Assembly (NCBI GenBank): GCA_024400395.1
Contig: JAKSMW010000008.1
Coordinates: 1 to 64,000, forward strand
Source of the DNA: Bacteroidales bacterium
GTDB taxonomy: Bacteria > Bacteroidota > Bacteroidia > Bacteroidales > F082
Reading direction: 5' to 3'
Length of the DNA stretch: 64,000 bases
Shown here piece by piece: positions 55,114 through 64,000 of this stretch. Under the pieces are notes generated by a model. It had not been told where the DNA came from, made no database searches, and saw nothing but the letters and a program-made list of their open reading frames with translations. The translations under genes and the position numbers were made by a program. Within the stretch, counting starts at the first letter, position 1; every line of letters starts with the position of its first letter.

Positions 55114-57444
55114 TCATGATTTCCAGCACAGACCCGCACCTGTGACATATACCGGCGCGCCATCAAGCGGAGAGCCTTTCTGAACTTGTTTGGCTTCCAG
55201 GATTTCAGAGAGATTGATTTCCTTTGACGACAGCTGAGCCGCCAACGCATAAAGCAGATATTTCTCGCCTTTGGGAGAAGGATAACCCAATCTTTCCATA
55301 TCCTCTTTTTTATAAACCCATTGTCGGTTTTCCAAACGATATAGAGAATATGTTGACGGATTTTCAAAATCGTAAAGGATTAAAAATCTTGCTGTAACAA
55401 CTTGCTCGTCGTTTTCCTTCACGGCACCGCGGCGGTCACCGAGACGGACATTGTACTTCTTATTATTCTGAATCCACTGCAAATGTTCCTCGTTCTTGTA
55501 ACATCCGATGAGGAAAACCGAATCCTTGAAATCCTCAAGTTTGAATTTTGATTCGTATAAAGACTGCTCTTCGGCAGCGACGGAAAGCACACCATACTGA
55601 TTCTGATAAAAATCGTATGAATGTTTTTCAACACGTTTTCTCTTCATCTCATCCATCGTTTCCTTCGGGTCGTCACCCAATTTCGGCAACTTGTACACAT
55701 CAAAATCTTCCTCCAATGCCGCAATCAGAGCGAGATCGTCGGCTTTTGTCGCACGGAACATCATGAAATCGGCAGACCGTTTTTCCGCAACATCTTCTTT
55801 TTCCAACGCCAAATAAAGCAAGGGCGGCTCCTGTTCCGGATACGGGCAGAACACCTTGCCGTTGATTTTGCGGAAATGTTTGTCTATAGCGGCTTGCAAA
55901 TTGTTTTTATCCGTTGTGAGAATCCAAAAATCATACAACAAGTTAAACCGATTCAGCAAATCTTCTCTGAATTTCTTTCGGAAGTGTTCCTGTATGCCCT
56001 TGTCCGCGCCCTGTACATAATGCGCTAAAACATACAGGAAATTGATGTTGTAGGTTTGCAAAACGAATGTGTCGCGGTCGAAAAGGCGGTTGGGGAAATG
56101 ATAATTGACGAGCTTATTCTGCTTGTCTTTGACATCATCATCATATTCATTTTTCAAGCCATCTTCGGTGTAACCATACAAGCTATTGTCTTTTTTAATC
56201 GCGCTTGCGCGGATAAAGAAATTGGGCGTGATATTATAACCTTCTGTCAGTTCATCGCGATACTGAAGTTCGTCAGGATATTGTTTGTTTTTATTAAAAA
56301 TATCAATATGATACTGAATGATGTTTTTGGCGTAGGTAAACTGCTTATAAACAGCCGTTTCACCCAAATCGGTGCTTTCCTTGTAGTATTTGCTGTCGCC
56401 GATGAAATAGATTTCACCGCCATTGTTGATGAGCGAAGGTTCTTTGTATAAATGGTCGAGGCGCTTGCCGTCTTTCTGGTGCTTGAGTTTCAGCAAATCA
56501 TCATTCCCCTCATTTCCGCCGATGAGCTGGTCGATCATATCTTCGAAAATGATGTTGAATTTGACGGCCAGCAACTTTTCTTCGTGATATTTGCCGGAAG
56601 CGATTTTCTCTGCTTTATCAAAGAAAACATAGAGCAGATTCCACAGCTTGACAAGTTCGTCGGTGAAGTATTTCTTGCGGATGGCACGCAGGCGGCGGGT
56701 ACCCTGTCCTTGCGCTATCATCGATTCTATTTTCCGCACCGGAATGAGGTCGTAGCGCAAATCGCACACTGTTTTGAACCGCATTTTCTCCTGCAAGAAA
56801 CGAAGCGTGGAATAGAACAGCACAATCAGTTCCTCATCGAAATTGATGGATTTGGTCTTGTTGTAGAAATCCATATAGACGGGTGCGCCGTCTTGCAGAA
56901 AGGGCTGCACTTTGCGCACGGTCTTGTTCCAGTTGATTTTGTGCGTGCCGCTGCGGTTGACGATGGAAATGAAAGTAAACAGGTGGCGGTGTTCTTTCTG
57001 GAATTTCTGAAGTTGTAGAATGATGTCTATGTAGGTCTCGCATTTCTCGCCTTTGGAAGAAGCAATCTCCTGCACGTTCGACATCTTGACGATTTCGGTT
57101 CCGGGGTTGCGCTCCACGAAGTGCGCGATGGCCTGATACAGCCAGGCGGAGAGTTCGAAGACGGTTTCCTTTTCGTCATCAAGACTCTTGTCCGACAAAG
57201 AATCAAGTTTGATGATTTCTTCTGGTTTGTATTTCCCGAAAGCGGTGCCGTCTTCTTTGATAAAAACCTTGGGCAGCACGAAAACCACGTCGTTCACTTG
57301 CGGATTCGTGCAGTAGAAATAGCCCACGCAGCCCACCTTCACGCCGTTGGCGGTTTCGATGAGATAGGCCCCGTCAACGCACTGCTTGATCAGCGCGATG
57401 TTGTCGGCATTTGCATATTGGTATTCTTCGAAGAGGAGGATCAT
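55114..57444 (-). CDS. LlaJI/McrC-like restriction nuclease subunit with extra C-terminal domain
   Basis: A 776-residue protein. Residues of about 1-290 correspond to the N-terminal region of the LlaJI/McrC family. A PD-(D/E)XK core follows: EDMIDQLIGG (about 301-310), KRLDHLY (D330) and FIGDSKYYKES (D350, K352). Such subunits cut DNA when driven by a McrB-like NTPase, which is encoded upstream at 58096. Residues 641-736 (DSVFLIGCYKNEEHLQW, VRLGDRRGAVKENDEQVV, ENPSTYSLYRL, YLLYALA) are related to the C-terminal domain of the methyltransferase at 62096. McrC itself is about 350 residues, so this protein is much longer. It is last in the island, 47 bases after a DUF1016-type remnant. Confidence 0.82.
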   Translation of the reverse strand: MILLFEEYQYANADNIALIKQCVDGAYLIETANGVKVGCVGYFYCTNPQVNDVVFVLPKVFIKEDGTAFGKYKPEEIIKLDSLSDKSLDDEKETVFELSAWLYQAIAHFVERNPGTEIVKMSNVQEIASSKGEKCETYIDIILQLQKFQKEHRHLFTFISIVNRSGTHKINWNKTVRKVQPFLQDGAPVYMDFYNKTKSINFDEELIVLFYSTLRFLQEKMRFKTVCDLRYDLIPVRKIESMIAQGQGTRRLRAIRKKYFTDELVKLWNLLYVFFDKAEKIASGKYHEEKLLAVKFNIIFEDMIDQLIGGNEGNDDLLKLKHQKDGKRLDHLYKEPSLINNGGEIYFIGDSKYYKESTDLGETAVYKQFTYAKNIIQYHIDIFNKNKQYPDELQYRDELTEGYNITPNFFIRASAIKKDNSLYGYTEDGLKNEYDDDVKDKQNKLVNYHFPNRLFDRDTFVLQTYNINFLYVLAHYVQGADKGIQEHFRKKFREDLLNRFNLLYDFWILTTDKNNLQAAIDKHFRKINGKVFCPYPEQEPPLLYLALEKEDVAEKRSADFMMFRATKADDLALIAALEEDFDVYKLPKLGDDPKETMDEMKRKRVEKHSYDFYQNQYGVLSVAAEEQSLYESKFKLEDFKDSVFLIGCYKNEEHLQWIQNNKKYNVRLGDRRGAVKENDEQVVTARFLILYDFENPSTYSLYRLENRQWVYKKEDMERLGYPSPKGEKYLLYALAAQLSSKEINLSEILEAKQVQKGSPLDGAPVYVTGAGLCWKS

Positions 57445-57449
57445 AGCGG

Positions 57450-57573
57450 TTATTGGTTTTGTTGGCGCAAAAATTCCATCATCTTGTTCTTAGTTGGTAT
57501 CAATCTGGCGTTGCAGTTCGCGCACGCTCCAAGTGTCGCGGATAGCCATTGTTGCGTAAAAATCGTTTGCCAT
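57450..57573 (-). pseudogene. Collapsed remnant, DUF1016 N-terminal start joined to a foreign-frame tail
   Basis: ATG 57571-57573 opens MANDFYATMAIRDTWSVREL, then QRQIDTN, and stops at 57490. WSVRELQRQID is the hallmark N-terminal motif of DUF1016 (YhcG-type) nucleases. In another frame the next bases read IPTKNKMMEFLRQQNQ and a TAA at 57450, which looks like the authentic end of a protein. Beginning and end are thus retained with the middle lost and a frame change. A DUF1016 C-terminus is present at 63684. Confidence 0.55.
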
Positions 57574-57620
57574 AATCACATTCGTTTTTTCAATTATTAT
57601 TCAGCAATACAAGTAACATT

Positions 57621-58062
57621 CTATTCTTTCTCATCCTCCGTCGGCAACAGATAATCGCTTGCCTTGGATGCCGAAATGGCGGACTTCCCTGTTTTGCTCT
57701 CCAACTGTTTTCGTGCGGCTTTCGCAACGCTGCCGCCCCTGCGCCATCCAGATTTTGAACGGTTCTGCTTTTGGTGAAGGTATAGACTGGATAAGGCGGA
57801 AAAGACCTTGTGGTGAAGCACAGTTAACCCTTTGTTTGCCTCCTTGGGTTTGCACGGAAAGGGGGGTGACAATTTGTCCCCACCCTTCTGCAAGGGACGG
57901 GTCACGTTTCTTCATTTTTTTAATGTAATCGCTTGGGTTCACACTATCCGTGAGGGCTTCCACAACATCTACCACACAAAAGTACCATTGTTCGGTTTCA
58001 GAATCCCAAACGGTGCGGACTTTTTTCTCTTCAAAAAGTTGGATTTCCTGTTTTTTCGGCAT
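57621..58062 (-). pseudogene. Bro-N domain protein with internal deletion and frameshift
   Basis: From 58062 the frame reads MPKKQEIQLFEEKKVRTVWD and the Bro-N core WYFCVVDVVEALTDSVNPSD, SPQGLFRLIQSIPSPKAEPF, KIWMAQ (about residue 108). At about 57738 the family sequence jumps to another frame, reading GGSVAKAARKQLESKTGKSA and ending with TEDEKE at 57621. Intact relatives have well over 100 residues between these blocks and end in GG-VAKAARKQLE--TGKSVIS. The gene has lost its middle. Bro-N proteins are DNA-binding, often phage antirepressors or companions of R-M genes. Confidence 0.75.
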
Positions 58063-58095
58063 GGTTTTTTCATCTTTAAATGGATTAACGAACTA

Positions 58096-59658
58096 TTATT
58101 CTTCTCCTGCTTCAGTCGCCGCAGCCTTTTCATCCTCAATATTCACTTCCGGCACTTCCAGCTTCTTCATAAAGCCCTGCAACAATTCTGTTGCGTTTCC
58201 CCTGAAGAGGTCGTTGAAAGAGAACTGATTCTCAACATCTTGCCCGTTTTCATTTTTCGTCTTTTGCACGAAGAATGGATTTGTTGAACCATACAAATCC
58301 TTGCCCACTTCGCTCCAGAGGTAGTACATCACCTTGTTGATGAACGTCTTATAGTCAACGCTCTTCTTGATGAAGTACTCGCCCATCTGCTTGTCTTCGG
58401 AATCGGTGACGGACAGGATCTTTGTGTTGACTTTTTGTAAGAAATCAACCCATTTATATTTCTTATCTCCAATTTCAATTTCGAACGTATGGAAATTATC
58501 TTTTTCGTCTTTCGCTTCGGCGGCGGAATAGCGGATAGGCACAAACTCCCAATCCCATCTTCTCTTGAAGGCCGAATCCATCGGGAAGAGGCTTTGGTCG
58601 GAGGTGTTCATTGTGGCGAGGAGGTTGAGGTTGGGAGGCAGGCAGAGTTTGCCGTTCTTGATGCCTTCACTATCCGCGCCAAGTTCTTTGACCAGGTAAT
58701 TCTTCAAATCCTCGTCAATGTCTATGGGATATTCCGAATAACCGTTCTCGTTTCTGTCAAGCAGTTGGAACAAGTCTCCGAAAATCTGGGCGCAGTTGCC
58801 GCGGTTGATTTCCTCAATGACGAGGTAAACGGGTTTTAGTGTTTCTTGTTCCGTCTCAGTTCCATCTTCTTTTTTCACTTTGACCTTTACCTTTTCATCT
58901 TTTGCAATAATTTCCCACGCCTTGACGTAGGCTTTGGTGAAGACTTGAGGGATGAAGGAGTATGTGATATCTGCGTTATTTTGTTGATAATTTCTTCCCA
59001 AATCAATTCCATCATTAAGTTCTGGTGATTGGGTGTCCTTTCCACAATCTTTCAAAAATTGGGTTTTATTAATGGTATCAAACGATTCCCAATATTGGAA
59101 ACCAATCTTGCACAATTTATGAGGTTCAGAAATTGTACCAAAAACATTTAAAAGTTGAGCATGATCCAACAAGGGCATTTTCTCTTTCGTCGGCTTATAG
59201 CAACCCACAAAGCTTGCGTAATCGTAATCGGGATGGAAGGTGGTGCGGAAGATGTTTTCCTCGGGCACACCTGCCAATTTTTCGCTCTTCACTTTGTAGC
59301 TTTTCCCTGTGCCGGGCGCGCCGTAGAAGATGGTTTGGAGAGGGAGATTAAGTAATTTTGTAATTTTTCCACCGTCATTTTGAATAGGAGGAAATATGTA
59401 TTTCCCTGCTTTAAGATTTATCCATGCATTTATTCCGCCACTGAAATAAGCCTCACTACCAGAATTAAAACCTGCATCAAGTAATAATTGTCCATAATTA
59501 CCTTTATAGTATTTTGTAATAGCTTCACCATGAGTAAAACCAAAAAACATACAAAAATCATTTTTTGAAATGATTCTATTAGTAAAATCTTGAAATCCTT
59601 TTTTTGCCAATTCAACAAGTTCTTCTTTTGAGTTGGCTGTCTCTCTAAATGGAACCAT
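58096..59658 (-). CDS. McrB-like restriction NTPase
   Basis: A 520-residue AAA+ protein. An N-terminal region of about 90 residues is of unknown fold (possible specificity part). Walker A TIFYGAPGTGKSYKVK (residues 113-120), Walker B VYLVIEEINRGNCAQIFGDL (about 277-296) and the McrB signature LLATMNTSDQSLFPMDSAFK (MNTxD, about 347-366) with arginine FKRRW. These use GTP or ATP to translocate and activate the McrC/LlaJI nuclease. ATG 59658 (MVPFRETANS) is preferred to a TTG at 59688. It overlaps the methyltransferase upstream by 14 bases, so the genes are co-expressed. Confidence 0.88.
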   Translation of the reverse strand: MVPFRETANSKEELVELAKKGFQDFTNRIISKNDFCMFFGFTHGEAITKYYKGNYGQLLLDAGFNSGSEAYFSGGINAWINLKAGKYIFPPIQNDGGKITKLLNLPLQTIFYGAPGTGKSYKVKSEKLAGVPEENIFRTTFHPDYDYASFVGCYKPTKEKMPLLDHAQLLNVFGTISEPHKLCKIGFQYWESFDTINKTQFLKDCGKDTQSPELNDGIDLGRNYQQNNADITYSFIPQVFTKAYVKAWEIIAKDEKVKVKVKKEDGTETEQETLKPVYLVIEEINRGNCAQIFGDLFQLLDRNENGYSEYPIDIDEDLKNYLVKELGADSEGIKNGKLCLPPNLNLLATMNTSDQSLFPMDSAFKRRWDWEFVPIRYSAAEAKDEKDNFHTFEIEIGDKKYKWVDFLQKVNTKILSVTDSEDKQMGEYFIKKSVDYKTFINKVMYYLWSEVGKDLYGSTNPFFVQKTKNENGQDVENQFSFNDLFRGNATELLQGFMKKLEVPEVNIEDEKAAATEAGEE

Positions 59659-60838
59659 AATTATTGGAATTAAATAGATGTTTCGCAAATATTTTTACAC
59701 ATTCAACATTTACTGCATTACCAAACTGCTTGTATGCCTGTTGCTGTTTGATGTCTGGTTGAAAGTCCTCTGGAAAACTCTGAAGTCTCGCACATTCTCT
59801 AGGTGTCAAGAAACGTTTCTTTGAACCAATAATTGAAGTCTGTACTATTGCAACGAGAGCGGGAAAGTAAGTATTAACCTTCACTCGAATACCGGAGGGC
59901 CGCAATTGGAATATTTGTTTCCAAATATCTGGATGTTTCGTCTGGCCAGCTTGCCATTCTAATTTCGCCTTGGCACCAAAGAAAAGAGGATTCTGGCGCG
60001 CTCTCTTAAGCCATTCATCAATAAACTCACGATTATTCACATAGAGTTCATTATTCTTGAGAATAAAATTCTGTTTCCAAGCAGGATATTGCACCAAGTT
60101 CTCATTAGGGTCAAGATCACACAATCTATCAGACCACACGGGAAAACCTGGCAATCTTTTAACTTTGATCTTCTTAATAAATTCATTCCACAAATCAATA
60201 AGATTTTCCATTTCCGATGAGATGCAATATTCTTTTATATTTGGAATGTCTTTATCATCCAACAAGACATCTTCAATAGAGCATTGTGGTAATTTCTTTT
60301 TATCAAAAACAAATGGTTTAACACTTCCGACATCCTGACGCACACACATAATATAGACTCGCTCACGATGTTGCGGTATGCCAACATAATGAGGGCTAAA
60401 AATAACTGGTTCCGGCAACAAATTATACCCAAGTTCGTCCAATTTGTTATGAATCACACGCCAAGTATTGCCATGATCGTGACTTGCTAAATTGCGGACA
60501 TTTTCAAGCAAAGCATACTTTGGTCTATGATATGCCATTATGCGACATACATCAAAAAACAACGTACCCTTAGTTTCATCTTCAAAACCAAGGCGTTTAC
60601 CTGCTTTCGAAAATGCCTGGCATGGGAATCCTGCACAAAGAACATCATGTGCAGGAATGTCTGCTGCATCAATTTTTGTAATATCACCTGCTGGAGCAAT
60701 ACCATAATTTGCTTCATAAGTCTTACGACAATCTTCATCTATATCGCTAGCAAATACACATTTTCCACCAAGTGATGTCATGGCCTGATGGAATCCGCCG
60801 ATGCCACAAAATAAATCTATAAATTTAAATGAGTTCAT
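59645..60838 (-). CDS. DNA C5-cytosine methyltransferase B
   Basis: A 397-residue enzyme. Motif I FIDLFCGIGGFHQAM, motif IV GFPCQAFSKAG with catalytic Cys73, motif VI LLENVRNL, motif VIII PQHRERVYIMC, motifs IX/X RECARLQSFPEDF and YKQFGNAVNVECV. The target-recognition region lies between about 180 and 320. Its ATG shares one base with the stop of the preceding gene (TAATG), so they are translationally coupled. It lacks the extra C-terminal domain of methyltransferase A. Confidence 0.95.
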   Translation of the reverse strand: MNSFKFIDLFCGIGGFHQAMTSLGGKCVFASDIDEDCRKTYEANYGIAPAGDITKIDAADIPAHDVLCAGFPCQAFSKAGKRLGFEDETKGTLFFDVCRIMAYHRPKYALLENVRNLASHDHGNTWRVIHNKLDELGYNLLPEPVIFSPHYVGIPQHRERVYIMCVRQDVGSVKPFVFDKKKLPQCSIEDVLLDDKDIPNIKEYCISSEMENLIDLWNEFIKKIKVKRLPGFPVWSDRLCDLDPNENLVQYPAWKQNFILKNNELYVNNREFIDEWLKRARQNPLFFGAKAKLEWQAGQTKHPDIWKQIFQLRPSGIRVKVNTYFPALVAIVQTSIIGSKKRFLTPRECARLQSFPEDFQPDIKQQQAYKQFGNAVNVECVKIFAKHLFNSNNYGSI

Positions 60839-62082
60839 TATTGATTATAGGTATAACGGAAAACAACAAAGTTGTCATTCTCCAGCACTTTCTTGTTAAT
60901 ATTAAATTTTGGCTTTCTCGCATTTCCATCTGGCTGATGACCCTGATTGAAGTCAGTTAATGCCTCGCGGAAATTAACGCGATTAAGTTCTATGATTGAC
61001 ATCTTCATGAACTTAACCGAATTCTTCATTCGCTCATGATAAGACATTTCATCCTTATCATAAGAAGAATCAACGCTCTTTATATAGCGATTTCTTGCCT
61101 TTGTCGCCTCATAGTTTGTCGCCTCACAATCCTTTATCGTCTCGTGTTCATAGATAACATACCAAAACTTATCGAACTGATAAATACACTCAACAAGGTT
61201 CTCTTGATCATTACCCGGAGTCTCTTTTTTCTTAATATCGCTTGCCTTCAAGTCGCCATAGAAATCTTCTTCATCAAAGCGAATGTCAAAATCTAGATCG
61301 CCCTCACGCTTCAGAGAACTACCAACGTAGCGCATCTGATTTGTGACATTATTATCAATGGTAAACTTGTTGAATTTGTATTCTAAGAACCAGCCTGCCC
61401 ATTCTGCTTGTCTCCATTGAGGCCATTCATTCTCATGCATTTCCTTAATAACTTCAAATGCTTTGAGCCATTGTCCAAAGGTGAATCCACAATTGAATTT
61501 TCGGAACAAATCGAATAGAGAGTTCGTCGCAGTCACATTACCTGTAATGTAATCACGAAACTTATCTTTACGAATTGCAGAAATATTATTACCAAAATAA
61601 TCTTCTTTGGTAAAAACACCATAAGTCATAGCCTGAAACAGGTCATTTGTATAGACGTGTGCGGATGAGTTGTGACCTTTCTTTGTAAGATAAGTGTCTT
61701 TCTTGAAATCCACAAATATAACATTATCACCATGATGTTCGTCACCATAATGATAGACACCTATGTAACGAACATCAATATTTGAGTTCTGCATATTTGT
61801 GGCATTTGTATATTCATTAAACCAAAGAGGCAACTGAACTCTTTTCTTAAATATCGGGTGAGGGTTGCCCAAGTATGTACAAGTACGAACAAGAAGATGA
61901 TAGATCTTCCCGTCATCAATATATTCCAGAATCCACTTACGATACGGAACTTTAAGAATCCTACACTTTTCTTTTCCTAAAGCATCTATAAGACATGTTT
62001 GGAGTTGCTTATCAGATAGTGGTTGATCTTGAGCCACAACAAGACTTTTATCAAGAGTTATTTGTTCGCTATCAACATTCAT
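60838..62082 (-). CDS. Candidate type II restriction endonuclease
   Basis: A 414-residue protein lying between two cytosine methyltransferases, the expected place for a cognate endonuclease. No close family was recognised. A PD-(D/E)XK-like core can be read: EWAGWFLEYKFNKF (Glu candidate), GDLDFDIRFDEEDFYGDLKA (Asp residues at about 262-266, then D277-x-K279). The N-terminal half is rich in aromatics (YIGVYHYGDEHHGDNVIFVD). Start ATG 62082 (MNVDSEQITL) is 13 bases after the methyltransferase A stop; an upstream ATG at 62109 would overlap it. AT-rich, as is methyltransferase A. Confidence 0.6.
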   Translation of the reverse strand: MNVDSEQITLDKSLVVAQDQPLSDKQLQTCLIDALGKEKCRILKVPYRKWILEYIDDGKIYHLLVRTCTYLGNPHPIFKKRVQLPLWFNEYTNATNMQNSNIDVRYIGVYHYGDEHHGDNVIFVDFKKDTYLTKKGHNSSAHVYTNDLFQAMTYGVFTKEDYFGNNISAIRKDKFRDYITGNVTATNSLFDLFRKFNCGFTFGQWLKAFEVIKEMHENEWPQWRQAEWAGWFLEYKFNKFTIDNNVTNQMRYVGSSLKREGDLDFDIRFDEEDFYGDLKASDIKKKETPGNDQENLVECIYQFDKFWYVIYEHETIKDCEATNYEATKARNRYIKSVDSSYDKDEMSYHERMKNSVKFMKMSIIELNRVNFREALTDFNQGHQPDGNARKPKFNINKKVLENDNFVVFRYTYNQ

Positions 62083-62095
62083 ATTTTTATATTTA

Positions 62096-63511
62096 TTATA
62101 AATTTTCAATTGTTGTAAAATAAGGAGAATAGCATCTCTGATTGTAATTCAAATGAACATCATTATTGTCAAAACTTTTTACGTTTTTAGGTTTTGTGCT
62201 CTTTAATCTGAAACAGAGATAAATATCTCCGGATACCTCAAACCCTAATGTTTTCAAAAAAGAAGCATCTGCTATTATCGGCTCTTCTTCCTCTAAATCA
62301 TATATTCCAGCATTTTCTTTGTGATGGAGTAACAAGTATTTAGGTATTATAGAACAATCTTCTTTGAATATGGATCCCCTTCTACCATCTGAACGGACAT
62401 AATACAACTTATTCTGTAGTATGAGTTGTTTATGCCAATCACCTTTATAGTAACCAACAAGGATTGTACTATCCGATGTCTTCGCTTGTTGAACTTGAAC
62501 AGAAAGAGCAACTTCAATACGATTAAGAGCATTCAGTATGGATTTCGCTATCTCATTTCCAAGACGTGGCGGAACGGCATTTCCTATCATCTTGTATGCA
62601 TCCTTTATGTCGTTGTATTCAAAGATGAAGTTGTCAGGAAACGTCTGTATTCTAGCACATTCGCGGACACTAAATCTTCTATATTCGCTCATTTTGTCTT
62701 TTTGAAAGTTCCAGTTCTCATGACCGAAATACATCATTTTGGGAGAAGATGGATGTAAGGGGGCAAAATCTGCCGTTGCATTTATTGTAAAAGAGGGTTG
62801 CTGCCAGCCCCTACGTCTATTGCCTCGATAATAAAAAGAACCAAATTTAGATGTCAAAACATCGTGGTTAGGACGGTTATGCTTCACGACATTGTCTTCT
62901 TTTCGACCAGAGTAAAAATTAGGTTCTTCCGTAATATCGCCAATCGCTCTTTTAAGAGTGACAGGTTCATCACAAGTAGGGTTAGGGAATGTAAACGTTA
63001 TATTCAATTCCTTCCTAAAACCAACAAAGAATACCCTTTCACGATTTTGAGGAATGCGGAAATTCACAGCATCAAGCAATGACCATTGAACATCATAACC
63101 TGCGCTGTCAAGCCTATTTACGAAATCCTCAAACACTTCCTTGAACTTATCATCCAATATACCTTTCACATTTTCTATTACAAAGAACTTTGGTTTCTTG
63201 ACATTAATGAGTTCAATATATTTAATAAACAATCGCCCTCGTTCGTCCTCAAGTCCCTTTTGCTTGCCTCCCACACTCCATGACTGGCAAGGTGGTCCAC
63301 CAATAAAACCGTCACAATCTGGAATCGAATCAGGGTCAATCTTGCAGACATCACCAAGAGCAAACTTAGTGTTGGGATGATTACGAATGTATGTTGCACG
63401 ACAATATTGCTCGAACTCATTAGCCCAAACCACATTGAATCCAACCTGCTCAAAGCCAAGGTCAAGACCGCCGCATCCTGCAAAAAATGAAGCAACAGTA
63501 TATTTCATCAT
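62096..63511 (-). CDS. DNA C5-cytosine methyltransferase A with extra C-terminal domain
   Basis: A 471-residue enzyme, longer than the usual 330-400. Motif I VASFFAGCGGLDLGFEQVGF, motif IV GGPPCQSWSVGGKQKG (Cys75), motif VI VIENVKG, motif VIII PQNRERVFFVGF, motifs IX/X RECARIQTFPDNF and YKMIGNAVPPRLGNE end near residue 320. Residues 346-437 (DSTILVGYYKGDWHKQL, YYVRSDGRRGSIFKEDCSII, IYDLEEEEP, YLCFRLKS) form an additional domain related to the C-terminus of the LlaJI/McrC-like nuclease of the same island. It is first of the intact R-M genes. Confidence 0.94.
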   Translation of the reverse strand: MMKYTVASFFAGCGGLDLGFEQVGFNVVWANEFEQYCRATYIRNHPNTKFALGDVCKIDPDSIPDCDGFIGGPPCQSWSVGGKQKGLEDERGRLFIKYIELINVKKPKFFVIENVKGILDDKFKEVFEDFVNRLDSAGYDVQWSLLDAVNFRIPQNRERVFFVGFRKELNITFTFPNPTCDEPVTLKRAIGDITEEPNFYSGRKEDNVVKHNRPNHDVLTSKFGSFYYRGNRRRGWQQPSFTINATADFAPLHPSSPKMMYFGHENWNFQKDKMSEYRRFSVRECARIQTFPDNFIFEYNDIKDAYKMIGNAVPPRLGNEIAKSILNALNRIEVALSVQVQQAKTSDSTILVGYYKGDWHKQLILQNKLYYVRSDGRRGSIFKEDCSIIPKYLLLHHKENAGIYDLEEEEPIIADASFLKTLGFEVSGDIYLCFRLKSTKPKNVKSFDNNDVHLNYNQRCYSPYFTTIENL

Positions 63512-63541
63512 CCTCTTTATTACTTTTCAAACACTCTTTCC

Positions 63542-63680
63542 CTATGCCACTCTAAAAACTGCTTGTTCGGCAAGTGTTTTTAGGGGAGGAAATTTTTTTT
63601 CAATTATTGTTCTTGCACCATCATCTTTCTTTACCGCACCCCGCGAACAAATCGATGAATGTATATTTTTTCTTTTTCAT
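63542..63680 (-). pseudogene. Collapsed third C5-cytosine methyltransferase
   Basis: ATG at 63678-63680, 3 bases after the DUF1016 stop, reads MKKKKYTFIDLFAGCG, the N-terminal motif I of a C5-methyltransferase, then KER and TGA at 63621. In an overlapping frame the following bases read RGAVKKDDGARTIIEKKFPP and LKTLAEQAVFRVA before TAG at 63542. RGAVK-DD---II--KF resembles RRGAVKENDEQVVTARF in the C-terminal domain of the nuclease at 55114. So the start and the end of a methyltransferase with that domain appear joined near a GGGGTGCGG microhomology, with about 400 codons lost. Confidence 0.6.
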
Positions 63681-63683
63681 AAC

Positions 63684-64000
63684 TTATCCTTCCTTTATGT
63701 TTTCTTTTTCCATCCTATCGGCAAGTTTATCTTCAATTTCCTCGATGGTAGGTATCATACCTTCCACTTGGGTTGGATAGAGTTTTTCCAACTCAAACTC
63801 CGAAATGCCAATCGGTTGATTGCTCGATTCAAGTGCATATTGCGCCAAGAGATTGTCTTTGTTTTTGCAAATAAGCAGTCCGATAGTTGGATTATGGCAT
63901 TCCTGCTTTAAAATATGGTTGCAAGCCACAACGTACGTTCCCAATTGTCCAACATCTGGTGCGTCAAATTCGCCAATCTTAACTTCTATCACCACATAGC
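63684..64000 (-). CDS. DUF1016 (YhcG-type) PD-(D/E)XK nuclease, C-terminal part
   Basis: The frame is open to the right edge of the window and ends at 63684. It reads YVVIEVKIGEFDAPDVGQLG, where E-V-K completes a PD-(D/E)XK core, then HNPTIGLLICKNKDNLLAQY, the conserved C-terminal block of DUF1016. About 105 residues of a protein normally of about 340 are visible. Such genes often sit next to R-M systems. A remnant of the N-terminal domain of the same family lies at 57490. Confidence 0.85.
   Translation of the reverse strand, partial: YVVIEVKIGEFDAPDVGQLGTYVVACNHILKQECHNPTIGLLICKNKDNLLAQYALESSNQPIGISEFELEKLYPTQVEGMIPTIEEIEDKLADRMEKENIKEG

Follow-up and report, generated by a model that had tools for sequence, protein, structure and literature searches.

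A C-terminal domain of predicted PUA-like fold shared by McrC-like nucleases and DNA methyltransferases of Bacteroidota

The window analysed here is the whole stretch of 64,000 nucleotides at the start of contig JAKSMW010000008.1 from a Bacteroidales bacterium (assembly GCA_024400395.1), whose genome is 83% complete at 2.1 Mb. On its minus strand, at 55114-63998, lies a row of restriction and modification genes. Two of the encoded proteins, an McrC/R2.LlaJI-like nuclease and a 5-methylcytosine (m5C) methyltransferase, end in the same domain, which we predict to have a PUA-like fold and which probably reads DNA bases. The genes and features of the row, in positions of the whole window, are as follows.

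63684-63998, minus strand: end portion of a YhcG-type nuclease gene, the first in the row when read 5' to 3'
63542..63680, minus strand: 5' remnant of an m5C methyltransferase (MKKKKYTFIDLFAGCG), recognised from its sequence and not a copy of the domain (1.2 bits with the domain hidden Markov model, HMM; tail without relatives)
62096..63511, minus strand: m5C methyltransferase A (MT_A), 471 residues (PF00145 at 3.9e-90; motifs)
62099..62476, minus strand: PUA-like C-terminal domain of MT_A, residues 346-471 (BLASTP, HMM, tail-inclusive alignment and profile-profile comparison; weak model)
60838..62109, minus strand: MTaX1 protein, restriction-enzyme-like (PF20296 at 2.5e-21; PADLOC REase_II at 4.8e-82; GDLK motif at residue 285)
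59645..60838, minus strand: m5C methyltransferase B (MT_B), without the domain (PF00145 at 1.2e-81; absent from the domain HMM matches)
58096..59688, minus strand: McrB-like AAA GTPase, 530 residues (AAA_5 at 6.7e-9; GAPGTGKS at 123, EEINR at 292, NTSD at 361)
57631..58062, minus strand: BRO-N gene, apparently truncated, lying between the genes of the McrB-like and McrC-like proteins (PF02498 at 4.3e-13; PDC-S13 profile positions 1-134 of 286)
55114..57444, minus strand: McrC/R2.LlaJI-like nuclease, 776 residues (PD-(D/E)XK-type motif IGDSK at 348; core HMM)
55117..55524, minus strand: PUA-like C-terminal domain of the McrC-like nuclease, residues 641-776 (BLASTP, HMM, tail-inclusive alignment and model)

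The m5C motifs that we searched for are present in both MT_A and MT_B. The McrC-like nuclease has no significant match in Pfam; its relatives match PF09823 and PF04411, and it clusters with these DUF2357-PDDEXK_7 proteins by a core HMM that was built partly from the nuclease itself.

A sequence-only reading of the window had described one residue pattern in residues 641-736 of the McrC-like nuclease and 346-437 of MT_A, and the pattern was found at exactly these places. In BLASTP the full-length proteins match at E 3e-10 with 24% identity over 220 columns, the similarity lying mostly in the C-terminal block. The MT_A domain, used as a query in the window genome, matched itself and the McrC copy (E 9e-9) and nothing else. 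Profile-profile comparison with hhalign, which that reading had proposed as a check, gave 99.9% with an E value of 5e-32 between 7 methyltransferase domains and 33 McrC domains; in 20 controls with shuffled columns the value never exceeded 0.4%. By these comparisons the two segments are one homologous domain. Conservation continues to the protein end in a '...G...P-F-x-x-x-L-x-E-L' block of the tail-inclusive alignment, so that the domain is about 130 residues long, C-terminal (641-776 in the nuclease and 346-471 in MT_A) and larger than first proposed. Between 26 and 52 residues follow the matched part in 46 of the 48 carriers described below, with 7 in the protein of locus L068 and 2 in that of L144. 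Y, R, G, L, Y and P are almost invariant, and none of the positions conserved to this degree is acidic. The alignment has 47 rows and omits L144, which is cut short.

The same reading had seen a third copy on the decayed methyltransferase at 63542, and this candidate was rejected. Its 'RGAVKKDD' near 63640 is an other-frame reading (SRGAVKKDD) of the bases that encode FAGCG of motif I; the domain HMM gives that reading 1.2 bits, and a search with the remnant's tail in 295 genomes returned, besides itself, nothing better than E 0.2. The broken methyltransferase itself is real, with its start at 63680 (MKKKKYTFIDLFAGCG). It directly precedes MT_A, and the YhcG-type nuclease gene stands on its other side. 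The window genome (G000) has nine m5C methyltransferase matches, the highest number among 60 genomes scanned.

The domain HMM made 84 matches over all loci, which reduce to 48 distinct proteins when identical domain sequences are merged. These are 36 McrC-like nucleases, as assigned by the core HMM built here, seven m5C methyltransferases and five others: two N6/N4 methyltransferases (L040 and L066, N6_N4_Mtase in Pfam), a protein resembling the specificity end of a type IIG enzyme (L072; PADLOC 2.2e-19, Pfam TaqI_C merely at E 0.015), a NOV_C nuclease (L073) and one without an assigned family. The search for the domain on other restriction-modification proteins, which had also been suggested, thus found at least five kinds of enzyme, and the domain is not special to this island. 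Among representatives chosen for Pfam, the carriers in L029, L031, L032 and L071 are DUF2357-PDDEXK_7 proteins, those of L034 and the window MT_A are DNA_methylase proteins, and L046 has no match. The L065 carrier joins PDDEXK_7 to the domain, and a neighbouring frame matches the McrC core HMM. HaeIII-type nucleases adjoin the carriers in L027, L030 and L034. A protein of 415 residues with the domain at its C-terminus (L042:9069-10316) matches neither Pfam nor PADLOC models. Its next gene encodes an M20 peptidase, and no restriction gene was recognised alongside, the other neighbours being outside the Pfam scan. L071-L073 are unverified faecal scaffolds labelled as phage.

We surveyed the order with one query sequence, which makes the copy counts per genome lower bounds. 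At E<=0.01, 24 of 393 genomes matched in 26 places. The iterated HMM confirmed 21 proteins in 20 genomes; the other five places (L020, L021, L023, L024 and L025) failed it in the wider loci L044 and L047-L050. Of these 20 genomes, that of the window alone has two confirmed copies. Across the phylum 15 of 395 genomes matched at E<=0.001, each of the 14 besides the window genome with a single match, and two further orders gave 13 of 128 and 4 of 176 genomes, some of which overlap the phylum search. L145 (E 7e-5) is not among the final HMM matches, and L084, a partial match of 6 bits, is counted as lacking the domain. One further scan of genome contigs yielded four loci only, two of them duplicates of L027 and L028.

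The domain is unevenly spread over its carriers. PF04411, a model that misses the window's own nuclease, matches proteins in 7 of 198 genomes of the order, and six of the seven proteins have the domain. There are 72 m5C methyltransferase matches in 60 genomes (two pairs among them being pieces of one frame), with two confirmed carriers, the window MT_A and a protein of genome G003. The domain is absent from eight plasmid-borne DUF2357 relatives examined (10 records matched), which come from Pseudomonadota, Bacillota, Spirochaetota, an archaeon and, in one case, Salinibacter (listed as Rhodothermota). It therefore seems to belong to the normal make-up of one branch of McrC-like nucleases in Bacteroidota, and to be added to methyltransferases only occasionally. 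As for a route by mobile elements, no domain match was found in plasmids, and viral contigs contain stretches that fit the pattern, none of which encodes a relative. Three matches lie in unannotated faecal scaffolds labelled as phage, one of them at E 0.05, and all three score well with the domain HMM.

Identity between the two copies of the window is 27-31%, and they belong to different, well-supported sublineages. In a tree of 47 domains, the McrC copy falls in a starred set with L026 (McrC), L010, L072 and L073, where L010 is an m5C methyltransferase beside a HaeIII-type nuclease, the same protein as that of L034. The starred set of MT_A holds five other m5C methyltransferases, two N6/N4 methyltransferases and two other McrC proteins. 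The approximately unbiased (AU) test rejected a single clade of the two window copies (p-AU 1.1e-5) and also a single clade of all seven m5C methyltransferases (p 0.005), a group that includes long-branch rows. L006, L026 and L010 are long branches in this tree, and without L006 and L026 the window copies still stand in separate starred sets. These results suggest more than one transfer of the domain between nucleases and methyltransferases, with the copies of the window being distant kin of long standing and not a pair shared recently.

The nearest relatives of MT_A (L067 and L068) have domains 65 and 71% identical to its own, and the McrC core HMM has no match in the six loci of other domain-bearing m5C methyltransferases, these two included (12-20 kb each). 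L067 has the same order MT_A-MTaX1-MT_B with no McrC core detected within 12.3 kb, which bears on whether the methyltransferases are cognate to the McrBC-like nuclease. In this Prevotellaceae relative MT_B (L067:7634-9289) has about 160 extra C-terminal residues that the window MT_B lacks, and they do not match the window McrB-like protein. The two copies in one island look like the coincidence of two domain-bearing systems. These enzymes could still be linked in function, since the genes may form one transcript.

Structure prediction points to the kind of domain that this may be. The model of the McrC copy (residues 632-748) is fair, with a pLDDT (predicted local distance difference test) of 82.5 and a pTM (predicted template modelling score) of 0.75, and that of the MT_A copy (residues 338-447) is weak (pLDDT 56.0). 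The order of strands and helices agrees between the copies where assigned, with the reservation that the MT_A model is the weak one. In Foldseek, the McrC-copy model resembles ASCH, YTH and EVE folds of the PUA superfamily over most of the domain; the best row is ZmASCH, the Zymomonas ASCH protein (E 0.012, probability 0.99), and VcaM4I, an EVE protein, is also among the rows. A PUA-like fold is thus predicted for the McrC copy.

Sequence profiles do not confirm membership of the PUA superfamily. The Pfam models of EVE (PF01878), ASCH (PF04266) and DCD (PF10539) match 0 of 47 members at E<=1, and YTH has no match in Pfam either. A PDB profile search with the 47 members returned no chain at E<=10, solved YTH chains included. 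Against EVE, hhalign gave 1.6% and 5.8%, with an EVE alignment of just five sequences. The DCD model has no match over its cut-off in 123 genomes of the order, and sub-threshold matches (E<=0.1) in 10 of them. No family recurs among the 47 members in Pfam (24,736 models), and in NCBIfam (18,950 models) one member matched once, weakly; the sequence-only reading had not recognised it as a named family, and these two libraries give it no name. No publication describing it was found in the open-access literature searched, with most subscription papers outside, as judged by titles and the openings of abstracts; PMC11090510 announces a forthcoming publication on methyltransferase-associated McrBC systems, which may well cover it. 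Our best reading is a mobile reading module with a PUA-like fold, new as a family and of a kind that is already known.

Domains of this kind have been described in restriction systems. EVE is a specificity module there (PMC7641849), and that of VcaM4I takes flipped 5-methylcytosine or 5-hydroxymethylcytosine into a pocket (PMC7897488). The readers of McrB proteins are DUF3578, EVE or YTH domains, and additional domains can also occur on McrC homologs (PMC11090510, PMC12707154), EVE-superfamily domains among them (PMC11090510). The domain described here shares with EVE, as found in VcaM4I and EVE-McrB fusions, a predicted fold of the PUA superfamily. It differs from YTH, as in the natural YTH-McrB fusion, in being attached to McrC or methyltransferases and not to McrB. 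DCD is EVE-like, and its fusion partners include Rossmann-fold methyltransferases, PD-(D/E)XK enzymes and McrB-like proteins (Bell et al. 2020; PMC7641849), a range similar to that found here. The same authors report frequent fusion to methyltransferases and suggest extra methylation of already modified DNA. DCD, however, is described there as rare in prokaryotes and mostly from archaea and hyperthermophilic bacteria, whereas the present domain is from Bacteroidota.

The gene row resembles LlaJI in its two m5C methyltransferases and its McrB-like and McrC-like genes. L029 shows the likeness in order as well: two DNA_methylase genes come first, then an AAA protein whose Pfam AAA matches are weak, then the McrC that carries the domain. 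In the LlaJI system itself, the site is bound by R1, and no binding was seen with the McrC-like subunit R2 (PMC1459862). R2.LlaJI, given as 48.8 kDa, is much smaller than the 776-residue protein of the window, and the window row has extra MTaX1 and BRO-N genes. A stretch in another frame (57621-57905) seems by eye to carry a later part of the BRO-N gene; together with the partial PDC-S13 match, this indicates that the gene is probably decayed. In L031, the GTPase partner of the carrier matches PADLOC PDC-M26A at 2.6e-53 and the nuclease matches PDC-M26B at 0.003 only. DUF2357-PDDEXK_7 McrC-like proteins (PF09823 and PF04411) are the commonest carrier, at 36 of 48, and differ in this from the eight plasmid-borne relatives examined.

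The probable account, in our view, is a mobile C-terminal domain, accessory to its enzymes and about 130 residues long, which has a PUA-superfamily (EVE/YTH/ASCH-like) fold and serves as a reader of DNA bases. By analogy with EVE and YTH domains, it would bind DNA and flip a single, probably modified base into a pocket that holds it. On McrC-like nucleases it may provide a second reading head for the McrBC machine, beside McrB. The McrB-like GTPase of the window has only about 120 residues ahead of its P-loop, which leaves no evident space for a reader at the N-terminus; the domain on McrC might do the reader's job in its place here. On methyltransferases it may act as a tether or a gate set by the modification state of nearby DNA, with the product of the enzyme itself or of a sister enzyme on hemimethylated DNA, or phage modifications, as possible signals. 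Modified-base reading was one of three functions that the sequence-only reading had offered, and it fits the predicted fold best. A wider statement is tentative: that a Bacteroidota-wide PUA-like head, distinct from EVE, YTH, ASCH and DCD, has been exchanged among nucleases, m5C and N6/N4 methyltransferases and specificity proteins, providing modification-gated methylation and a second McrBC check.

Docking is another of these functions. A domain for protein docking, bringing restriction and modification subunits together or attracting a host partner common to them, would sit, as this one does in the carriers examined, at the C-terminus of very different enzymes. We regard it as unlikely. One confirmed copy was found in 19 of 20 genomes of the order (lower bounds) and one match in each of the 14 other matching genomes of the phylum search, so that a second domain-bearing partner is usually not seen, and the fold predicted for the domain is of a type that works on nucleic acids.

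The sequence-only reading had suggested that the shared domain could direct the cutting and the modifying enzyme to the same place. One domain on both enzymes is what we found, and their common gene row and an McrB-like protein without an obvious DNA-recognition domain in the short stretch before its P-loop would favour a shared recognition of one sequence target. The second half of the proposal was not supported: the copies lie in different sublineages, the MT_A module occurs elsewhere without a detected McrC core, and the core HMM found none in the six other m5C carrier loci (12-20 kb each). The domain is also found on N6/N4 methyltransferases and on m5C methyltransferases beside HaeIII-type nucleases. 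N6/N4 and m5C methyltransferases have their own target recognition, which in m5C enzymes is the region between motifs VIII and IX, and MT_A has the usual m5C motifs and the usual region between these two. A target-recognition domain common to this island is quite unlikely.

If the domain were an ASCH-like enzyme with nucleosides or RNA as its substrate, this would account for ZmASCH as the top Foldseek row. ASCH domains have an E-x-R roughly after the first helix, and a conserved N/Y-x-R stands at roughly that place here. Yet no member has an ASCH match in Pfam, the nearly invariant residues include no acidic one, and a binding role is favoured by the fusion to enzymes of DNA restriction and modification, which makes such an enzyme very improbable. 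Chance or compositional similarity, which pairwise identities of just about 30% within the domain might suggest, is refuted by the BLASTP and hhalign results above and by HMM E values of 4e-36 to 3e-18 across the 48 proteins, many of which were also in the training set.

The domain, which has no family name in the libraries used, is found in Bacteroidota on m5C and N6/N4 methyltransferases and on McrC-like nucleases, and it adds to the known McrC extras and to DCD. Annotators could now name a C-terminus that has been blank. The domain also offers a small, testable protein for the question of why a DNA-marking enzyme would need a base reader. If the wider, tentative statement above is true, some type II methyltransferases would methylate depending on a modification already on the DNA, and the same head on McrC would be a second modification check in McrBC systems.

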